A DNA stretch of 25,337 nucleotides, from assembly GCF_000719555.1 (NCBI RefSeq), contig NZ_JOGX01000082.1:1-25337 (forward strand), read 5' to 3'. The notes below the pieces were generated by a model that worked only from the letters and a program-made list of their open reading frames with translations, did not search any database and was not told where the DNA came from. This document shows, piece after piece, positions 1-7,330 of this stretch (positions are counted from its first letter, which is position 1; each line of letters opens with the position of its first letter). The DNA is from Streptomyces sp. NRRL F-5727 (lineage in GTDB: Bacteria > Actinomycetota > Actinomycetes > Streptomycetales > Streptomycetaceae). Position numbers and translations under genes: made by a program.

Positions 1-204
1 AGGCGGCGCGGGGGGCGGTTGCGGCGGGCGGGGTCGGGGGGCGCGGGGGGGGGGGGTTGGGCGGCGCGGGCGGGCGCGTGCGCCCGCGTGCGCGCCTCTC
101 CGCACCGCCCAATTCCCCGGTCACAGCTTGGATTTGGCCTCGCTGGACCCAGGCGTTGCTCCGCTAGAGTGAAGCACCGGTTTCCTGGTGAAAGGGGAAA
201 GCGA
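1..204. other. G-rich intergenic leader with nested palindromes
   Basis: I see no convincing coding sequence here. The first 60 bases are extremely G-rich on the + strand, including an uninterrupted run of 12 G at 45-56 and several further G-runs, so a G-quadruplex is possible. Bases 63-96 hold nested inverted repeats: GGCGCG (63-68) pairs with CGCGCC (91-96), and inside them GCGGGCGC (70-77) faces GCGCCCGC (80-87). This could be the terminator of a gene left of the window. Long homopolymers are also frequent assembly error sites, so the exact length of the G-run is uncertain. Confidence 0.5.
143..170 (+). promoter_or_regulatory. possible promoter of the first gene
   Basis: TAGAGT at 165-170 is a fair actinobacterial -10 box. 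CTGGAC at 143-148 is a weak -35 box with a 16-base spacer. The inferred transcript start would leave a leader of about 28 bases with a GGGG ribosome site before the ATG at 205. This rests on box matching only. Confidence 0.35.
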
Positions 205-738
205 ATGTCTCGCCACAACCCGGTAGAGGTGCAGATCCACACCGGGTCCTTATGGGTCGGCGGTGACGCGTACCCCCTGCGGAACATCTCGCACGTGGGA
301 CAGCGCCGGCTCGTTCCCGTGAAGAAGAAGATCGGCAAGGACCTCTTCGTCGGCATCGTCCGCATCTGGCTCGTCCTCGGCATCGGCGGGGCGCTCGCGC
401 AGGCGTCGAAGGAGACCGTCGCCTACGTCGTCGTGGTGGTCATCGCCGCCCTGATGGTCTGGCGTCTCGTCGCCAAGGTCCGGCAGCCCGATCTCCCCGT
501 GCTCTTCGGCCTGATCGTGAACACGGCCGGCACCCAGCGGGACACCGTCTGGAGCACCGAGAAACACGAGATCGACCACCTCGTACTGGAGATCACCAAG
601 GCCATCAGCACTCCGGGCCAGGCTCAGATGATCTTCAACGTGCAGCACGCCGTCGCCGGTGACCTCATCCAGCAGTACGGCGCCAACAGCATCGGACAGG
701 CCAGCCACTTCGGCCACGGCAACATCCAGGCAGGGTGA
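205..738 (+). CDS. DUF6232-like two-pass membrane protein with C-terminal shared motif
   Basis: The protein has 177 residues. The N-terminal part (about 8-40, with WVGGDAYPLRNI) matches my memory of the DUF6232 family, small actinobacterial membrane proteins of unknown function. Two hydrophobic helices follow at about 48-66 and 71-90. A soluble domain with a TxxHEIDHLVxEI segment (about 95-135) resembles the way PH-like membrane proteins read. The last 25 residues (153-177) are a Gly/Gln/Asn-rich segment, QYGANSIGQASHFGHGNI at its core, that recurs at the start of the next protein. The ATG at 205 was chosen because GGGG at 194-197 stands before it and the upstream frame is low-complexity GC sequence. 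The stop lies one base before the next start, so the two are surely co-transcribed. I infer a membrane-anchored sensor or effector that displays the motif in the cytoplasm. Confidence 0.85.
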   Translation: MSRHNPVEVQIHTGSLWVGGDAYPLRNISHVGQRRLVPVKKKIGKDLFVGIVRIWLVLGIGGALAQASKETVAYVVVVVIAALMVWRLVAKVRQPDLPVLFGLIVNTAGTQRDTVWSTEKHEIDHLVLEITKAISTPGQAQMIFNVQHAVAGDLIQQYGANSIGQASHFGHGNIQAG

Positions 739-823
739 CATGAGCAGCGATCAGATCCACCAGTACGGCGCGGGCAGCATCGGCAAGGCCAGCCACACCG
801 GCTCCGGCGACATCGTCGCCGGC
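661..823 (+). repeat. duplicated 25-residue motif across a gene boundary
   Basis: Two copies of a 75-base segment lie 88 bases apart, at 661-735 and 749-823. The first codes the C-terminus of the membrane protein, the second the N-terminus of the next protein. The shared pattern is QYGAxSIGxASHxGxGxI, with about 17 of 25 residues identical. The stop and start codons of the two genes lie between the copies, so the similarity is kept in two separate proteins. Confidence 0.85.
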
Positions 824-1084
824 GGCAAGACGGTCGGTGCGGCGGCCACCCCCGCGACCGCCCTCGACGACCTCCGCTCGGCCATCGAGGGACTCCGCAC
901 CCACCTGGACGACACCCGCCGCGCGGAGCTCGACGCGGCCGCGGCGGACCTCGACCCCGCCGCCCCGCGCGCCGAACTGGAGGGCCCGCTCACCCGTATC
1001 GCCGGCATCGCCGCCCTCGTGGGCGCGGTCGGCGGCCCGGTCGTGGCCGCCGTGCAGGCCGTGCTGGCGGCGCTCGGCGCCTGA
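740..1084 (+). CDS. small helical protein with N-terminal shared motif
   Basis: The protein has 114 residues and I do not recognise a named family. Residues 4-28 repeat the end of the preceding protein (DQIHQYGAGSIGKASHTGSG). A linker follows. Residues 40-85 form an acidic, Ala-rich helical region with heptad-like leucines (LDDLRSAIEGLRTHLDD), and residues 86-114 form a hydrophobic Ala/Val/Gly helix (IAGIAALVGAVGGPVVAAVQAVLAALG) able to enter a membrane. The ATG at 740 was chosen over an upstream ATG at 659 because the latter would read the preceding gene's motif in the wrong frame. A short motif ahead of a small helical domain with a membrane-seeking tail fits a cell-death or membrane-damaging effector, but that is inference from layout only. 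Confidence 0.8.
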   Translation: MSSDQIHQYGAGSIGKASHTGSGDIVAGGKTVGAAATPATALDDLRSAIEGLRTHLDDTRRAELDAAAADLDPAAPRAELEGPLTRIAGIAALVGAVGGPVVAAVQAVLAALGA

Positions 1085-1126
1085 CGCCCCCGGCTCCGCC
1101 ACTCCCGCACCTCCCGTAACTCCCTT

Positions 1127-1175
1127 GCCTGGGACCTCCGTCCGGCGACACGGTAACCGGACGGAGGCCCCAGGC
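1127..1175 (+). terminator. strong hairpin between second and third gene
   Basis: GCCTGGG (1127-1133) plus CCTCCGTCCGG (1135-1145) pair with CCGGACGGAGG (1157-1167) plus CCCAGGC (1169-1175). This gives an 18-bp stem with a single A/C mismatch and an 11-base loop. No T-run follows, as is usual in high-GC actinobacteria. It probably ends the first two-gene transcript, although some read-through is possible. Confidence 0.75.
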
Positions 1176-1184
1176 CACGCGCGG

Positions 1185-1190
1185 TAAAGT
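1185..1190 (+). promoter_or_regulatory. possible -10 box of the third gene
   Basis: TAAAGT at 1185-1190 lies 45 bases before the GTG start at 1236 and directly after the hairpin. I see no good -35 box at the expected spacing, so this is a weak call. Confidence 0.3.
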
Positions 1191-1235
1191 CCGTGGGCCA
1201 CGCGCGATCGCCGCCCTGAGGAGCAAGGAGCACAG

Positions 1236-2120
1236 GTGTCCACGGCACCCCCGCCACCGAACAACACGCCCCACCCGTTCATGGGTTCACCGGCCGGGCC
1301 GCCGCCGCCGCAGCCGCCGCCCCCGCCACGGCGCGGGTGGTACGGAAGCCTGAGCGAGGGCGGGAAGGTCACGGTCATCGGCGCCGTGATCGTGGGCGTG
1401 TCCACGCTGGCCGCCGCGATCCTGCCGTCCGTGCTCTCCTCCGGCGACGGGAAGGGCGGCGGTGACGCCAAGCCTCCGGCCTCGCAGATCACGACCCAGG
1501 ATCCGACCCAGGAACCGACGAAGACCCAGGAACCCACGCCCACCGCGGAGTCGGACCCGACCGGCGAGACGCCTTCCGGGACGCCGACGGCCACGGAGAC
1601 GGCGACCGGCGGGACCGACGCCTCCGCGCCGCCGGCCTCGCGGACGTACGAGGTCTTCTACCAGGACCAGGCGATGTCGCTGGGGCTGCCGCCGGGCGAG
1701 GACGTCGGCTCGATCGACTTCGACGTGCCGGCCACCCGTCGTTACTCCGAGGAGGAATGGACGACGGAGAAGGAGAAGGCCGAGCAGTCCGGGGTGCCCG
1801 TCACCGCCGATCTGACGTACGCGGACACGTCGTACGGCTATCTGGCCCTCCGCAACGGCCGCAACGCCGCCCAGCTCCAGCCCACCGACCCGTCGGAGAA
1901 GGCCGCGGACTGCGCGAGGGCGGCGCAGGTGGGCGGATTCACCGAAGCGGTGATGGACGACTGGACGCTGCCGGCGCAGACGGTGCTGTGCATCCTCACG
2001 GACCAGGGCAACGTCGCCCGGGTCACGATCACCGGCTTCATCGGGGGCAAGAAGGACGGCCTGACCGATCCGCCGACCCAGATCTCCCTGAAGGTCACCC
2101 TCTGGAAGCCGAAGGGCTGA
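1236..2120 (+). CDS. single-pass membrane protein with Thr/Pro stalk and extracytoplasmic domain
   Basis: The protein has 294 residues. The start is GTG, with AAGGAG at 1225-1230. Residues 4-32 are a proline-rich cytoplasmic tail. One transmembrane helix spans about 44-67. Residues 70-135 are a Thr/Pro/Glu stalk with imperfect TQEPT-type repeats. Residues 136-294 form a compact predicted extracytoplasmic domain with two cysteines (226 and 252) that could form a disulfide. I do not recognise the domain. There is no signal cleavage site, so the orientation is inferred from the charge and stalk. It lies between two gene pairs that carry shared motifs but has no motif itself. It could be an external sensor for the cluster, or an unrelated cell-envelope protein. 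Confidence 0.8.
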   Translation: MSTAPPPPNNTPHPFMGSPAGPPPPQPPPPPRRGWYGSLSEGGKVTVIGAVIVGVSTLAAAILPSVLSSGDGKGGGDAKPPASQITTQDPTQEPTKTQEPTPTAESDPTGETPSGTPTATETATGGTDASAPPASRTYEVFYQDQAMSLGLPPGEDVGSIDFDVPATRRYSEEEWTTEKEKAEQSGVPVTADLTYADTSYGYLALRNGRNAAQLQPTDPSEKAADCARAAQVGGFTEAVMDDWTLPAQTVLCILTDQGNVARVTITGFIGGKKDGLTDPPTQISLKVTLWKPKG

Positions 2121-2144
2121 GAGCAGGAGAAGAAGGGGACGGAG

Positions 2145-2633
2145 ATGTCTCGTGCGGTGCGGTGGACGGTCGCGGGGCTCGCGGCGCTGGTGACGTTCGG
2201 GCTGTCCGTGGCGGTCGTACGGGCGCTGCCGTGGGGCTGGCTCCCGCAGGAGGACGGGGCCCGGCTCGACACGGCCCTCGCCTTCGGCGCCGTCGCGGGC
2301 ACGGCGGTCCTGGCGGGCCTCGGCTGGTGGGCCGGCCGCGAACAGCCGTCGCCCACCACGCCGACTCCTCCACGAAAGGTCACGCAGACCGCCACGGCCT
2401 CCGACGACGCCCAGGTCACGCAGGCCGGCGGCGGCGCCCCGCAGGTGGAGCAGCACGCCGAGGCGAGCGGGGAGGCGAGCGTCACCCAGACCGGCGGGCA
2501 CCTGCCGTCGCAGGGGGCGGGCGGCTCCGCGCCTCCCGGGGACCTGCCCGACCAGGTGGAGCAGCGCGCGCAGGCGTCCGGGCGGGGGCGGATCGTCCAG
2601 TCCGGTGGCGACCAGCACGTCGACGGGGCCTGA
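2145..2633 (+). CDS. two-pass membrane protein with three-copy repetitive tail
   Basis: The protein has 162 residues. The ATG at 2145 follows an AAGGGGACGGAG ribosome site. Two hydrophobic helices (about 8-28 and 43-62) form a membrane hairpin. The cytoplasmic tail (about 77-159) holds three copies of a roughly 22-residue unit reading V-x-Q-x-A-x-A-S-x(6)-Q-x-G-G, beginning near residues 79, 101 and 138. The third copy ends GGDQH. The same unit lies just before the ATPase domain of the next protein. The alternating polar Gln/Ser and small hydrophobic pattern suggests stacked beta strands, as in curli-like or signalling amyloids. The next gene begins at or before this gene's stop, so translation is probably coupled. 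I know no named family. The inferred role is a membrane partner or effector of the NLR-like protein. Confidence 0.8.
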   Translation: MSRAVRWTVAGLAALVTFGLSVAVVRALPWGWLPQEDGARLDTALAFGAVAGTAVLAGLGWWAGREQPSPTTPTPPRKVTQTATASDDAQVTQAGGGAPQVEQHAEASGEASVTQTGGHLPSQGAGGSAPPGDLPDQVEQRAQASGRGRIVQSGGDQHVDGA

Positions 2634-2814
2634 GGCGGTGGAGCGGGAACCGCACGGCCCCGGCCCGGAGGGGAAGACGGAGGGGAACACGAAGGGAAAC
2701 ACGGAGGGGGACACGGAGGGGAACACGGAGGGCGACCGGCACGACCGGGTCCGGCAGTGGGCGGAGGCGTCCGACGACAGCCGGATCTACCAGGCCGCAG
2801 GCAACCAGCACTTC
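2376..2814 (+). repeat. four copies of a Q/G-rich unit spread over two genes
   Basis: Copies lie near 2376-2441, 2445-2508 and 2556-2621 in the membrane-protein gene, and at 2749-2814 in the NLR-like gene. The common protein pattern is V-x-Q-x-A-x-A-S-x(6)-Q. The third and fourth copies are the closest pair in their ends: GRIVQSGGDQHV against SRIYQAAGNQHF. Confidence 0.8.
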
Positions 2815-4767
2815 TCGCGGATCGGCACCCAGCACGTCTGGGCCCCGGGCGGCGGCCCCGCCCCGCGCGCCCTGGCCGCCCTCCCCCCGGACCCGGCGCC
2901 GGCGCTGGCCGGCCGGGAGGAACGGGTCGCCGAACTCCTGAAGCACCTGGGCCCGGAGGGGCCGCCGGCGACGCTGGTGACGGGCCTGCCCGGCGTCGGC
3001 AAGACCGCGCTGGCACTGCACACCGCGCACCGGGCCGTCGGCCTCGGGCTCTTCCCCGGCGGCACGCTCTTCGTCCGGCTGCGCGGCTACGCCCCGACGG
3101 GCGCGGTCGACGCCGCCCAGGCGCTGGAGGCGCTGCTGCGAGCGCTGGGCGTCCGGGACACCGACCTGCCGCCGACGCCGGAGGAGCAGGCGGCCCTGTA
3201 CCGGTCGGAGCTGGCCCGCCGAGCGGCGGACGGCGGGGCGGTGCTGATCGTCGCCGACGACGCCTCGTCGGCCGGGCAGCTCGTCCCCCTCGTCCCCGCC
3301 CATCCGGCGCACCGGCTCCTCGTCACCTCCCGCGACGCCCTGACCGCCCCCGACTTCCGCCCCCGTCTCCTCCCCCTCGGCGAACTCGACACCCCGTCGG
3401 CCGCCGCCCTGATCGCCACCGCCCTCGCCCAGGTCGACCCCGCCGACCCGCGCGCCACGGAGGAGCCCGAGGCGCTGGAGCGGGTGACCGCCCAGTGCGG
3501 CCGGCTGCCGCTGGCCCTGACGATCGCCGCCGCCCTCCTCACCTACGACCCCGGCCTGCGGATCGCCTCCCTCGCGCACGAACTCTCGGACACCGGCCGG
3601 AGGCTGGGAGAGCTGCGGTACGAGGACGGCGACGGGCGCGCCTTCGCGGTCCGCACCGCCTTCGACCTCTCGTACCGTCGACTGCGGGAGCCGGAGGCCC
3701 GTCTCTTCCGCCTCCTGTCCCTCAACCCGGGCCCCGACGTGTCCACCGAGGCCGCCGCCGCCCTCACCGGCCGCCCCGCCCGCGAGACCCGCGCCGGCCT
3801 CGCCGCTCTCGCCCGCGCCTGCCTCCTCGGCGAACACCCGCCCCGCTCCGGCCGCTGGCGTATGCACGACCTGTTGCGTCTGTACGCCTCGGGACTGCCC
3901 GCGCACCGGGACGAGCACGAGGCCCGGCTCCGGCTGACGAGCTACTACCTGAGCTCGTGCGAGGCCGCTGACGTGCAGCTGCGTGCCGACCCCGGCCTCC
4001 GCGCCGGCCGCTTCCCGGACCGCGCCGCCGCGCTGGAGTGGCTGGAGGCGGAACGCCCCAACCTCGTCGCCGCCGTCGCCCTCGCGACCGCGCAGGAACC
4101 CCACACCGCTCTGCGCCTCGCCGCCGCCCTCTCCTTCTACCTGCGCCAGAGCCGCCACCTGCACGACACCCACGCCGCGGACGAGTACGTCATCACCGCG
4201 GCGCTCAGGGGAGGATCCCGGGCGGTCATCGTGAAGGGCGGCGCCGCCACCCAGAGGGGTCCCCTGCACGGCGACAAGGTGATCGTGCACCGCGCCGCGT
4301 ACGGGGCGGTCCGGCACGTCGTCCCGCCCGAGGAGCTCATCCAGGCGCGGAAGATCGTGGAGCGCGGCCAGGCGGCGCGGACGAGGGGGCTCCTCGCCGA
4401 AGCCGCCGCGGCCTTCCGCGAGGCGGTCGACGTCTACCGACTGCTCGGCCACCCCCGGGGCGAGGGCAGGGCGCTCGACGCCCTCGGCCTCACCCTCCGC
4501 GAAACCGGCCGCCCCGGCGAGGCGGCCGCCGCCCACGCCCGGGCCTCCGGCGCCCACCGCGAGGCGAACGACCTCCACGCGGAGGCGACGGCCCTCGACC
4601 ATCTCGGCCTCGCCCTCCGCGAAGCCGGCCGCCGCGCCGAGGCGGCCACGGCCCACACCAAGGCCGCCGCCCTCTTCCACAGGGAAGGCAGCCCCGCCGA
4701 CGAAGCGAGGGCACGCCGGAACGCCGGACTGGCAGCGGGGCTCAGAACCCGTCCGGCAGACGGTTGA
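2638..4767 (+). CDS. NB-ARC ATPase with TPR repeats (NLR-like/STAND)
   Basis: The protein has 709 residues from GTG 2638. GTG 2605, inside the previous gene, is in frame and would add 11 residues; neither has a strong ribosome site. Order of parts: a charged EGNT tandem repeat (11-33), one copy of the Q/G-rich unit (38-59), then the NB-ARC domain. The domain shows Walker A GLPGVGKTAL (116-125), Walker B VLIVADDA (202-209), sensor LLVTSRD (227-233), a GLPL-like GRLPLAL, winged helix and an MHD-type RMHDLL motif. C-terminal helical repeats end in three TPR units of about 40 residues. Between the first helical part and the clear TPRs lies an odd beta-rich stretch (about 515-570). Such STAND proteins oligomerise on ligand binding and relay through an N-terminal adaptor. 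No enzymatic effector is fused, so the effector is probably encoded nearby. SARP-type regulators share this core, but no DNA-binding domain is present. Confidence 0.85.
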   Translation: MEREPHGPGPEGKTEGNTKGNTEGDTEGNTEGDRHDRVRQWAEASDDSRIYQAAGNQHFSRIGTQHVWAPGGGPAPRALAALPPDPAPALAGREERVAELLKHLGPEGPPATLVTGLPGVGKTALALHTAHRAVGLGLFPGGTLFVRLRGYAPTGAVDAAQALEALLRALGVRDTDLPPTPEEQAALYRSELARRAADGGAVLIVADDASSAGQLVPLVPAHPAHRLLVTSRDALTAPDFRPRLLPLGELDTPSAAALIATALAQVDPADPRATEEPEALERVTAQCGRLPLALTIAAALLTYDPGLRIASLAHELSDTGRRLGELRYEDGDGRAFAVRTAFDLSYRRLREPEARLFRLLSLNPGPDVSTEAAAALTGRPARETRAGLAALARACLLGEHPPRSGRWRMHDLLRLYASGLPAHRDEHEARLRLTSYYLSSCEAADVQLRADPGLRAGRFPDRAAALEWLEAERPNLVAAVALATAQEPHTALRLAAALSFYLRQSRHLHDTHAADEYVITAALRGGSRAVIVKGGAATQRGPLHGDKVIVHRAAYGAVRHVVPPEELIQARKIVERGQAARTRGLLAEAAAAFREAVDVYRLLGHPRGEGRALDALGLTLRETGRPGEAAAAHARASGAHREANDLHAEATALDHLGLALREAGRRAEAATAHTKAAALFHREGSPADEARARRNAGLAAGLRTRPADG
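2668..2736 (+). repeat. 12-bp tandem repeat coding EGNT units
   Basis: Nearly six head-to-tail 12-bp units of the type GAGGGGAACACG lie near the 5' end of the NLR-like gene and code (E/K)G(N/D/K)T. The units differ by one to three bases. The length can vary by slippage without losing frame, and would change the spacing between the start and the Q/G-rich motif. Confidence 0.85.
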
Positions 4768-5344
4768 GGATCCGGAAGGGGAGCGAGAACCAGCGTCCGC
4801 CCTGGGAGAGGTGCCGGGTGTAGACGCCCTGGAGCACCAGGGCCAGCGCCAGGTCGACGGCGTCGGCCGGGCCCTCGGCCTGGACGTCGAGCCGCAGCGG
4901 CCGGTACCAGTCGTCCCGCGTGACCCGCACGAGGAGGCCCGCCCGCAGCAGCTCGTGGACGCACTTGTCGGGCCCCTGGCGGTAGCGGTACGCCCGCTCG
5001 CCGAGCCCGATGCGCAGGGCGCGCCCGTCGCGGGAGAGCCCGCTGCGGCGACGGCTCACGGTGCCGGTGTGCGGTCCGACCTGGAGGCGGGGGCGGGACG
5101 GCAGCGGCATCTGCGCGTAGTTGATGCCGCTGAAGACGGCGGGCGGTATCCGTTCGCCGCCGACGGAGAACTGCCGGAACGCGCTGCTCCGTCCGGCGGC
5201 GGCCCCGTACCGCAGCTCCACGTGCCCGAGACCGGGTACGACCCCGGCCCAGGAGGGCTGCCGCCCGAGCCGGCTGCGGCCGGTCTCCGGGTCGGTGTGG
5301 TGGAGGGAGAAGGAGGGGGCCGGGCCGCCGTATGAGGTGTTCAT
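4742..5344 (-). CDS. conserved-looking protein of unknown function
   Basis: The protein has 200 residues and runs against the NLR-like gene. The two 3' ends overlap by 26 bases. I do not recognise a family. It has no signal peptide or membrane helix. Its first half is Gly/Ser/Arg-rich with scattered aromatic residues (FRQFSVGGERIPPAVFSG). Its second half contains a run of basic and tyrosine residues (ERAYRYRQGPDK) and a regular hydrophobic helix (ADAVDLALALVLQGVYTRHL), so it looks folded and soluble. The codon bias is typical of the window. It could be a solitary cytoplasmic protein, or belong to the NLR set by position; the sequence does not decide. Confidence 0.7.
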   Translation of the reverse strand: MNTSYGGPAPSFSLHHTDPETGRSRLGRQPSWAGVVPGLGHVELRYGAAAGRSSAFRQFSVGGERIPPAVFSGINYAQMPLPSRPRLQVGPHTGTVSRRRSGLSRDGRALRIGLGERAYRYRQGPDKCVHELLRAGLLVRVTRDDWYRPLRLDVQAEGPADAVDLALALVLQGVYTRHLSQGGRWFSLPFRILNRLPDGF

Positions 5345-5407
5345 GGCGGCCCAGTATGCCGGTGCGGCGTGCGTCGCCTGCGTGGCCTGGGTGGGCTGTG
5401 TGGCCTG

Positions 5408-5434
5408 CGCCGCCCGGGTACGGCCCGGGCGGCG
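5408..5434 (-). terminator. hairpin after the OmpA-domain gene
   Basis: CGCCGCCCGGG (5408-5418) and CCCGGGCGGCG (5424-5434) form a perfect 11-bp stem with a 5-base loop, starting 10 bases beyond the stop of the OmpA-domain gene. It would end transcription of the leftward pilus-associated genes before the next leftward gene. Confidence 0.75.
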
Positions 5435-5444
5435 GCGGGCCGGA

Positions 5445-6095
5445 TCAGGGGGCGGCGGCGGGCGGCGAGGTCCGCGGGAAGGAGATCTCCACGCGCCGGT
5501 TCTTCTTCCGGCCCTCCTCGGTGCGGTTGTCGGCGATCGGGTAGTCCTCGCTGTACCCGCGGATGTCGTACGCGGTCCCCGGGTCCAGCTCCCGCGCGAG
5601 CACCTGCTGCACGGCGACGGCCCGCTCCTTGGAGAGCTTGAGCCCGTGCTCGTACGTCCCCAGGTTGTCCGTGAACCCGAACACCCGCACCCGTCCGGAC
5701 CCCTGCGTCCGCACCTCCGCCGCGATGGCGCGGATCCGCGCGGTGGCGGCGCGGCTGAGCTTGGCGCTGTTCTTGGCGAACAGCACCTCGGCCTGGAGCG
5801 CGAACGTCACGTCGACGTTGGTGTCCTCGCGCCGCTGCTCGCCACCTTCCTCTTCGACGATCTGCTTGATGTCCAGCACCTTGGCAGGTGCGAGCTGCGC
5901 GCCGTCCGGGAGCATCAGGTTCGGCGAGTTGGAGTCGATGGCGGGGGGCGGGGAGGACGAGGTGCTGCCGGGCGGATCGTCGGCGTACGCCGTGCCGGCG
6001 CCGCCGCCGAGGGGCCAGACCGTGATGACCGCCACGGTCGCGAGCGCGGCCAGCCTGCGTCGTCGTCCTGTAGTCGTTGTCGTCGTCGTTGTCAT
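5445..6095 (-). CDS. secreted OmpA-family (peptidoglycan-binding) protein
   Basis: The protein has 216 residues. It starts with a run of eight threonines and then RRRR. A hydrophobic segment and AYA-DD give a signal peptide with probable cleavage after residue 38. An OmpA-like domain fills about 93-210, with the family pattern GFTDNLGTYEHGLKLSKERA and the late NRTEEGRKKNRRVEI. In this fold the Asp and the Arg of the NR...R region bind diaminopimelate in peptidoglycan. Gram-positive bacteria have no outer membrane, so the likely role is anchoring to the cell wall. OmpA-domain proteins commonly sit in Tad pilus loci. It follows the lipoprotein gene after 9 bases, so both are in one operon. The threonine run comes from an unstable trinucleotide repeat. 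Confidence 0.88.
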   Translation of the reverse strand: MTTTTTTTTGRRRRLAALATVAVITVWPLGGGAGTAYADDPPGSTSSSPPPAIDSNSPNLMLPDGAQLAPAKVLDIKQIVEEEGGEQRREDTNVDVTFALQAEVLFAKNSAKLSRAATARIRAIAAEVRTQGSGRVRVFGFTDNLGTYEHGLKLSKERAVAVQQVLARELDPGTAYDIRGYSEDYPIADNRTEEGRKKNRRVEISFPRTSPPAAAP

Positions 6096-6104
6096 GACAG
6101 CGCC

Positions 6105-6689
6105 TCAGGAGAGCTTGAGGGTGGCGGGTTCGAAGGTGGGCAGCTGGAAGGAGACCTCGGTGGTGGAGGCGGGAGGTGCGGGGAATTGCATGAAGACGGC
6201 GGTGGACTTGCCGGGGCCGAGGCTGTCGAGACCGGTGGTGGTGAGCGGGCGACCGTCCGTGTCGCGGAGGACGTAGTAGCGCTTCTTGCCTACGGCGTCG
6301 ATGAGGGTGGCTCCGCCGAGGGACTTCCCGTGTTTGACCACCTCGGTCTCATCGCCCCTCATTTCCGCAGGCAGGCTGACTGCCGAGCCCGAGGAATTCG
6401 AGAGACGCCCCTTGATGGTGAGGAAGCCACCTGCGTCACGCTCTGCGGATTCGATCGCCAGCTCCACCCCCTTCCGCCCCTTGGCGACCAGCAGCGGCTC
6501 CGTCGGCTGCTCTGCCGGTTCGCCGGTGCTCGGTTCCACCTGGGTGGGTGAGGTCTCCTGAGAGGGCTGATGCGCGGTCGTCGGCTTGTGCGACGCCTTG
6601 GGCTCAGCGTCGGCGCCACAGCCTGCAACAGTCAAGGAGGCCGCTACCGCGAAGGCGACCAACCCCCCTCTCCCGTACGAGATCTTCAT
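6105..6689 (-). CDS. putative lipoprotein of the pilus accessory block
   Basis: The protein has 194 residues. An N-terminal hydrophobic segment ends in a lipobox, LTVAGC, so Cys24 is expected to carry the lipid anchor on the outer face of the membrane. A Pro/Thr/Glu-rich linker (about 26-65) leads to a domain (about 66-194) that reads like a beta-sandwich of the kind often seen in actinobacterial exported proteins (KGVELAIESAERDAGGFLTIKGRLSNSSG). Family unknown to me. It lies between the TadG-like gene (14-base gap) and the OmpA-domain gene (9-base gap), so it is probably part of the envelope-spanning support of the pilus. Base composition is somewhat lower in GC than in the flanking genes. 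Confidence 0.8.
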   Translation of the reverse strand: MKISYGRGGLVAFAVAASLTVAGCGADAEPKASHKPTTAHQPSQETSPTQVEPSTGEPAEQPTEPLLVAKGRKGVELAIESAERDAGGFLTIKGRLSNSSGSAVSLPAEMRGDETEVVKHGKSLGGATLIDAVGKKRYYVLRDTDGRPLTTTGLDSLGPGKSTAVFMQFPAPPASTTEVSFQLPTFEPATLKLS

Positions 6690-6703
6690 GAAGAGCGCTT
6701 CCT

Positions 6704-7330
6704 TTACTCGTCGTCGCTGGTCAGTCGAACGCGGAAGAGTTCATCGGCTCCGGGCAGCACAGGGTCATCCGGATCGACCTCCCAATCCTCGTCGCCGCAG
6801 GTGAGGCCCAAGATCGGGTCAGCTTCCTCCTCCTCTGGTTCCTCAGGCGGGGTACTGGAGGGATCCGGTTCAATGGGCGGCTCAGTGCTGGAGTCAGGGC
6901 TCGGTTCGGGCGGCGCGAACGAACACAGAGGCTCGACCACCGCAGAGGCAGTTGCCGTGGCACGGCGCTCATCCGTGCCCGGGACGATCGATTCACCGAC
7001 GGTTCCCTCGGTCTGGACCGTCACGCTGAAGCCGAGATCCCGCGGCACGCAGTCCTCGAGATCAAGCTCGGCACCATTGAGAGAGGCGAATGTGATGGCG
7101 TTCTGGCAGGCCCGTTCCGTGTCATAGCCCTCGCCCCGGACAAACTGCCGCCACTGAGCCGGATCGCCAATCTCGGCGAGCCAACGCTCCCGGAGTTGGT
7201 CTCTGGCATCTTGAGCCGCCCCAAGAGCCGCTGCGTCAGCAGCCGTTTGAGCTCCGTTACGCAAGGCTGCGGCCTGCCCGACAGCAAAGTAGACGAAAGC
7301 CAGGAACAACAGTCCACCGACAACCGCCAC
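6704..7330 (-). CDS. tadG: TadG-like minor pilin / pilus assembly protein
   Basis: Coding similarity runs from about 7375 (DRGQAFPAYVAVV, then a hydrophobic segment ending VYFAVGQAAALRNGAQTAADAAALGAA) to the stop at 6704. This N-terminal membrane helix and Ala-rich heptad region are typical of TadE/TadG-type proteins. The rest is extracytoplasmic, with four cysteines and an unusual acidic Pro/Glu tail (PPEEPEEEEADP). The expected start codon, overlapping the stop of the pilin gene, reads GTA in GTAA (7375-7372). The first accepted start is GTG at 7330, inside the membrane segment, giving 208 residues. Relatives as I recall them begin where the GTA lies. The gene may therefore use a rare start, have a sequence error, or be newly impaired. 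The gene order pilin, TadG, lipoprotein, OmpA suggests one transcript. Confidence 0.7.
   Translation of the reverse strand: MAVVGGLLFLAFVYFAVGQAAALRNGAQTAADAAALGAAQDARDQLRERWLAEIGDPAQWRQFVRGEGYDTERACQNAITFASLNGAELDLEDCVPRDLGFSVTVQTEGTVGESIVPGTDERRATATASAVVEPLCSFAPPEPSPDSSTEPPIEPDPSSTPPEEPEEEEADPILGLTCGDEDWEVDPDDPVLPGADELFRVRLTSDDE

Follow-up and report, generated by a model that had tools for sequence, protein, structure and literature searches.

A DUF6232 gene and its motif-matched neighbour form an NLR-free two-gene unit in actinobacteria

The window analysed here is the whole contig stretch 1-25337 of Streptomyces sp. NRRL F-5727 (genome 7.9 Mb), the first base of which is the first base of the contig. 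It carries five + strand genes, g1 to g5, which the original prediction had read as one NLR signalling system. Coordinates and open reading frames (ORFs) confirmed all five genes, and the two distinct motif types claimed for them, each common to adjacent proteins, were recovered as motif A in g1 and g2 and motif B in g4 and g5. What the prediction missed is that g1 and g2 form a complete two-gene unit of their own, free of an NLR. In this unit, designated cassette A, a membrane protein of the DUF6232 family ends in a short motif with which the next protein begins, and on balance we favour the reading that DUF6232 is an NLR-independent membrane receptor engaging its partner through motif templating. 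The features of cassette A are as follows.

205-738, + strand: g1, DUF6232 membrane protein with C-terminal motif A (ORF, Pfam)
658-735, + strand: motif A, receptor-side copy, in the C-terminal tail of g1 (motif profile)
740-1084, + strand: g2, motif A at the N-terminus, then a three-helix domain whose C-terminal helix is hydrophobic; weak likeness to DUF5955
749-823, + strand: motif A, partner-side copy, in the N-terminal head of g2 (motif profile)

Pfam assigned g1 to DUF6232 (PF19744; E 9.9e-18, 65.1 bits against a gathering cut-off of 27.4), a match also found in 30/30 A2 members, and Kyte-Doolittle analysis marked residues 47-65 and 67-85 as its hydrophobic segments. The C-terminal end of g2 is hydrophobic as well. 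Neither g2 nor g3 matched a Pfam family above cut-off, and the named members of the g2 family among its best 120 matches are all annotated 'hypothetical' or 'uncharacterized'. PADLOC returned no match better than E 0.0045 for g1-g5, and no firm fold was obtained with Foldseek and VIA. At E≤1 across the 7.9-Mb genome, the motif A profile matched only the copies in g1 (E 3.5e-12) and g2 (E 1.5e-13), both of which, like the window copies of motif B, were rows of their own model and therefore match it by construction.

In the relatives of cassette A, the gene after DUF6232 begins with the terminal motif of that DUF6232, and overlap of start and stop is usual. The pairing was examined by a frame-blind test, in which the DUF6232 tail was sought in the 240 nt after the gene. 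The tail motif was found again in 104 of 111 tailed DUF6232 genes (z≥5), as against 2/111 in control stretches at 600-854 nt downstream and 4/109 upstream; all six control matches come from tandem DUF6232 genes (L049, L110) or from Nocardia loci with the partner upstream. The 111 genes derive from 120 matches, which left 112 unique genes after removal of eight duplicates and 111 after exclusion of L113, the tail of which is too short. The seven misses comprise the first genes of the two tandems, two Nocardia loci, L070 (a fusion that also appears as L146), L242, where z was 3.1 although a likeness of head and tail is visible by eye, and L153, where no partner was seen.

Tail-head scores exceeded those of shuffled heads in all 67 assembled pairs (z≥5.7, median 13), a set made up of 63 of 65 assembled pairs and four added by hand (L114, L115, L154 and L156), from which L113, because of a break in its DUF6232 frame, and the leading DUF6232 gene of the L110 tandem were left out. 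The median score was 84 for cognate heads versus 38 for non-cognate ones, and the cognate advantage, both overall and within sequence clusters, was reached by 0 of 5000 permutations each, free and within-cluster. At 50-70% receptor identity the cognate head won 66% of comparisons and lost 31%, and above 70% its advantage was gone. In 19/67 pairs the cognate head ranked first on its own, close relatives having motifs in common. Among 63 pairs, 861 residues are identical between tail and head, of which 597 have identical codons where 635 would be expected from the codon usage of eight window genes; L163 alone has 24 identical residues with 11 identical codons. There being no excess of codon identity, the tail-head likeness is not due to recent DNA duplication, and the match is maintained at the protein level.

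The motif differs between lineages and matches within pairs, with divergent forms in L163, L161, L246 and L248. In 121 Streptomyces genomes, all 22 matches of the window-type motif A profile below E 0.02 were adjacent tail/head pairs (22/22, from 11 genomes), so that the motif is not scattered at random over unrelated proteins; the profile covers the window's lineage and its near kin, the motif types of other lineages lying outside it. Below the same threshold this motif was found on no NLR and no other protein in these genomes. An NLR acting in trans through it was rejected accordingly, weaker matches appearing from E 0.029 up, and the relay from membrane to ATPase that had been proposed for the locus is not supported. 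Pfam detected no ATPase domain in g1 or g2, and relatives of the ATPase of g5, being absent from most loci, were found within 10 kb in 2 of the 70 named loci. Some DUF6232 relatives are tailless (G395), with no motif tail and no partner seen; therefore not all DUF6232 proteins are motif-paired.

Partners are exchanged while the receptor stays. A helical g2-like domain stands beside DUF6232 in 63/70 named loci (hidden Markov model search; the named and the remaining loci overlap in part), in L146 within the same reading frame. Elsewhere the partner carries EAD1 (PF19955) over cut-off (L243, L248 and L249), PNP_UDP_1 (L154, E 1.3e-14) or another helical domain without a Pfam match (L245-L247 and L156). 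In Nocardia L128 and L131, it is a Bell-like protein, encoded upstream, whose C-terminal motif equals the DUF6232 tail. Streptomyces relatives of this protein number 15, seven of which have the C-terminal motif or full length, and five of these seven lie beside STAND ATPases: L257 (NB-ARC) and L258 (NPHP3_N) over cut-off, L271 (NB-ARC) at cut-off, and L260 and L261 with NPHP3_N just below it. As for the others, the homologue in L262 lies beside a short motif-bearing membrane protein, no partner was seen in L259, the seven relatives L264-L270 are without the motif, and L263 was not re-found. Since Bell-like effectors adjoin DUF6232 in Nocardia and STAND ATPases elsewhere, DUF6232 occupies the usual place of an NLR.

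Some loci show further arrangements. In Lentzea L114 (9472-10734) and Actinokineospora L115 (9502-10782), a short protein after DUF6232, with no Pfam match, bears two different motifs, the first matching the DUF6232 tail and the second, by eye, like the tail of an upstream HTH-like protein; it looks like a bridging adaptor. L146 (10001-10888, the same locus as L070) joins DUF6232 and the helical partner in one frame, in which the motif occurs once; its C-terminal part is out of frame with the family, and it is the one natural DUF6232-partner fusion. L049 (18196-19822) and L110 each have two tandem DUF6232 genes with one common downstream motif partner.

In the mechanism we propose, g1 would be a membrane-anchored receptor whose cytoplasmic, possibly PH-like beta fold is interrupted by a two-helix membrane hairpin and whose flexible tail would end in a short RHIM/BASS-like motif, and the co-translated partner would present the matching motif first and its output domain after it. 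We infer that a membrane cue serves as the trigger, upon which clustered tails would seed an ordered structure, probably amyloid-like, which would recruit the partner by direct binding and multimerise it. In the window, the output would be the three-helix domain of g2, which may act at the membrane through its hydrophobic last helix to bring about regulated cell death or growth arrest, with a putative role in killing or defence. In other actinobacteria the same receptor would serve other outputs (EAD1 adaptor, PNP_UDP phosphorylase, Bell-like effector) through a lineage-specific motif, DUF6232 being wired to its outputs as NLRs are to theirs.

Several known systems bear comparison with cassette A. 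Like the Bell-NLR pairs of bacterial amyloid signalling (BASS), as described in PMC7889193, PMC8086366 and PMC12261475, it consists of adjacent genes with C-terminal and N-terminal copies of a matching motif, and its output protein in Nocardia is like Bell effectors, whose homologues adjoin STAND ATPases; it differs in its receptor, a DUF6232 membrane protein that lacks an ATPase. The Q-aliphatic/aromatic-G-x-x-N/S core of RHIM, the fungal PP motif and BASS3 occurs in 37/111 tails and 24/67 heads, and a looser RHIM-like core in 91/111 and 53/67, both patterns being of our own definition, whereas many lineages have quite other motifs. The Frankia BASS3 peptide, reported to aggregate in PMC8086366, resembles the tails of L131 and L243 and the head of L154, and the effector tail of L257 is nearly equal to it (z 16). 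This single peptide matched 8/111 tails and 1/67 heads at p<0.01; its likeness to the window motif is weak (z 2.4 for g1 and 0.8 for g2), and the g4 tail also scored z 4.2.

The EACC1 system of actinobacteria likewise combines a constant small membrane component with a variable partner and can include EAD1, but is described with a single transmembrane helix beside a caspase, whereas cassette A has a two-helix DUF6232 and motif-matched partners, with no caspase seen (g2 gave no caspase match in Pfam). EACC1 was rejected as the family of g1 on the description available from PMC7159879, g1 having two transmembrane segments and belonging to DUF6232. EAD coupling, as set out in PMC7159879 and PMC8195603, is similar in that EAD1 occurs in three partners and matching copies join receptor and output, and differs in that the joint of cassette A is a short flexible motif and not EAD itself; the word RHIM is absent from the main texts of both papers. 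No paper naming DUF6232 or DUF5955 was found in the literature searched, preprints and the 2020 BASS paper lying outside its scope.

Cassette A has the look of a bacterial relay not described before, one that dispenses with the usual immune ATPase. The DUF6232 profile matched in at least 14 of 394 class genomes, with eight candidates scored per genome, and the named hosts include Streptomyces, Kitasatospora, Actinomadura, Lentzea, Actinokineospora, Actinophytocola, Nocardia and Intrasporangium. We are evenly divided over the wider proposal that DUF6232 founds an NLR-independent signalling-amyloid receptor class of filamentous actinobacteria, in which a PH-like membrane sensor would be joined by lineage-private, co-evolving templating motifs to interchangeable outputs: small helical membrane-acting proteins, Bell-like effectors, PNP_UDP, EAD1, and the two-motif adaptor of Lentzea and Actinokineospora bridging to a third protein. 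A commentary of 2021 (PMC7889193) asks whether NLR-independent signalling amyloids exist in fungi and bacteria; if the proposal is true, the DUF6232 class answers yes for bacteria. Cassette A is a concrete and widespread test system, with two small genes, more than 100 sequence-diverse natural pairs whose motifs match, and swapped output domains. It gives a testable role to the unannotated families DUF6232 and g2, and its naturally occurring motif pairs supply a ready-made panel for asking how short motifs keep their specificity and remain insulated from one another.

The alternative that survives best, although we judge it unlikely, is a stable non-amyloid heterocomplex, held together for instance by beta-strand pairing, that scaffolds a membrane structure in a housekeeping or envelope role and has no death or defence output. 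Matching motifs require binding only, AlphaFold2 gave neither motif a confident fold, and in several lineages (L072, L076 and L077) the pair is kept beside the same ordinary genes, as a resident function would be. The exchange of partners to EAD1, PNP_UDP or a Bell-like effector fits signalling instead, and relatives of g1 (E≤1e-5) are confined to a minority of genomes, 29 of 199 in Streptomyces. Distinctly less probable is a toxin-antitoxin-like arrangement, in which DUF6232 would restrain a toxic partner helix via its N-terminal motif. Although two small, overlapping genes and the hydrophobic C-terminal helix of g2 would suit it, restraint does not need a homotypic motif, and the motif is retained where the putative toxin has been swapped for an EAD1 adaptor or an enzyme.

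A single five-gene NLR system, in which two motif pairs would relay a signal from the membrane to the ATPase, is suggested by the tight same-strand order of the genes in the window, and we now regard it as very improbable. Cassette A (g1-g2), g3 and cassette B (g4-g5) come and go independently in a slot beside Tad pilus genes. The five loci compared have a common frame, made up of OmpA and Tad genes and, further upstream, a gene 'MYEL' (in contigs long enough to include it), within which cassette A occurs alone (S. omiyaensis L101) or with g3 (G076), and g3 occurs alone (G162) or with cassette B (G004), the window being the only one of the five with the full set. In the 199 Streptomyces genomes, relatives of g4 (E≤1e-3) occur in 9 and the C-terminal domain of g3 (E≤1e-6) in 8, alone or beside cassette A or B. 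Relatives of g1 and g4 occur together in 3/199 genomes (hypergeometric P 0.13) and adjoin only in the window, and g3 carries neither motif A nor motif B. Synteny and co-occurrence thus contradict the five-gene unit, and with it the expectation that the five genes would be found together elsewhere. Least credible of all is an origin of the tail-head likeness in tandem DNA duplication or gene conversion, an origin that the spacing of less than 100 nt between the motif A copies of the window might suggest and that was rejected on the codon count. The insertion slot itself spans window positions 1-6689, ahead of the OmpA/Tad genes, and the gene at 4742-5344 is likewise present or absent depending on the relative. 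The remaining features are as follows.

1236-2120, + strand: g3, membrane protein with one transmembrane segment, a stalk and a C-terminal domain; a separate cassette
2145-2633, + strand: g4, two-transmembrane protein bearing motif B three times; stands where a Bell-type effector would
2379-2441, 2442-2507 and 2553-2621, + strand: the three copies of motif B in the tail of g4 (motif profile)
2605-4767, + strand: g5, NLR-like ATPase of the STAND class, with TPRs and a single motif B copy in its N-terminal part
2746-2817, + strand: motif B, NLR-side copy, at about residues 48-71 of g5 (motif profile)

Cassette B, an NLR pair of the BASS type, is distinct from cassette A and uses the same genomic slot. 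The start of g5 is GTG 2605, with GTG 2638 as an alternative, and its Pfam matches lie below cut-off (AAA_16 31.3/32.6, NB-ARC 14.5/23.5 and TPR_12 28.9/30.1 bits). Within its own genome, motif B scored E 4.6e-7 to 9.9e-12 for the copies in g4 and g5, and a fifth match at C6:172622 (E 0.018) is at chance level. The motif B profile matched 69/121 genomes at E≤0.1, many of them at chance level. The loci concerned consist of a short frame and a frame of 700-1280 aa about 100 nt apart, both motif-bearing, and in 12 of 26 inspected loci (L203-L228) the short frame reads as a small, helical protein whose motif is C-terminal, labelled Bell-type after the description of Bell proteins in PMC7889193. 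Motif B is therefore not private to the locus but widespread on pairs of small ORFs and NLRs.

Cassette B and Bell-NLR BASS pairs are alike in that the N-terminal motif of the NLR-like protein is common to the adjacent gene and in that the motif family is that of Bell-type proteins beside NLRs; they differ in the effector, which in cassette B is a two-transmembrane protein with three motif copies. The BASS comparison of the original prediction thus holds for g4-g5, whose motif family is found on Bell-type proteins by NLR-sized frames; g1-g2 agrees with BASS pairs in the placing of the motifs but has no NLR. Profile comparison of the motifs with NLRs, which it had also proposed, placed motif B on NLR-sized frames and window-type motif A on none. 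In the g4 family, a two-transmembrane protein with two or three motif copies replaces the Bell-type protein. Hydrophobic segments of g4 lie at residues 7-25 and 41-59, and inspection of its sequence revealed no helical-bundle stretch, i.e. no Bell domain. Neighbouring g4-g5 genes were found in G004, G161, G039, G173, G074 and G033. In G041 (L067, 7776-9310), a g4 relative faces, in divergent orientation, a 334-aa protein that carries this motif along with a hydrophobic stretch, and there is no NLR.

The hydrophobic segment of g3 spans residues 45-63 and is followed by a Pro/Thr-rich stalk. A role for g3 as a motif-bearing receptor was rejected on its lack of a motif; its profile aligned weakly (probability 42%) with the stalked protein of L235. 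At that locus (6040-7163, G003), a small protein of Bell type, with its motif at the C-terminus, is followed by a non-NLR protein composed of an N-terminal motif piece, one transmembrane segment, a stalk and a C-terminal domain (hhalign 42% to the g3 domain), possibly a transmembrane NLR-free receptor, and L262 has a similar layout. Finally, contig C7 of G076 breaks off within a stretch that repeats the initial 26 residues of g1 at 96% identity, and this partial copy, together with the end of the window's contig just before g1, hints at a repeated start region or an assembly break.

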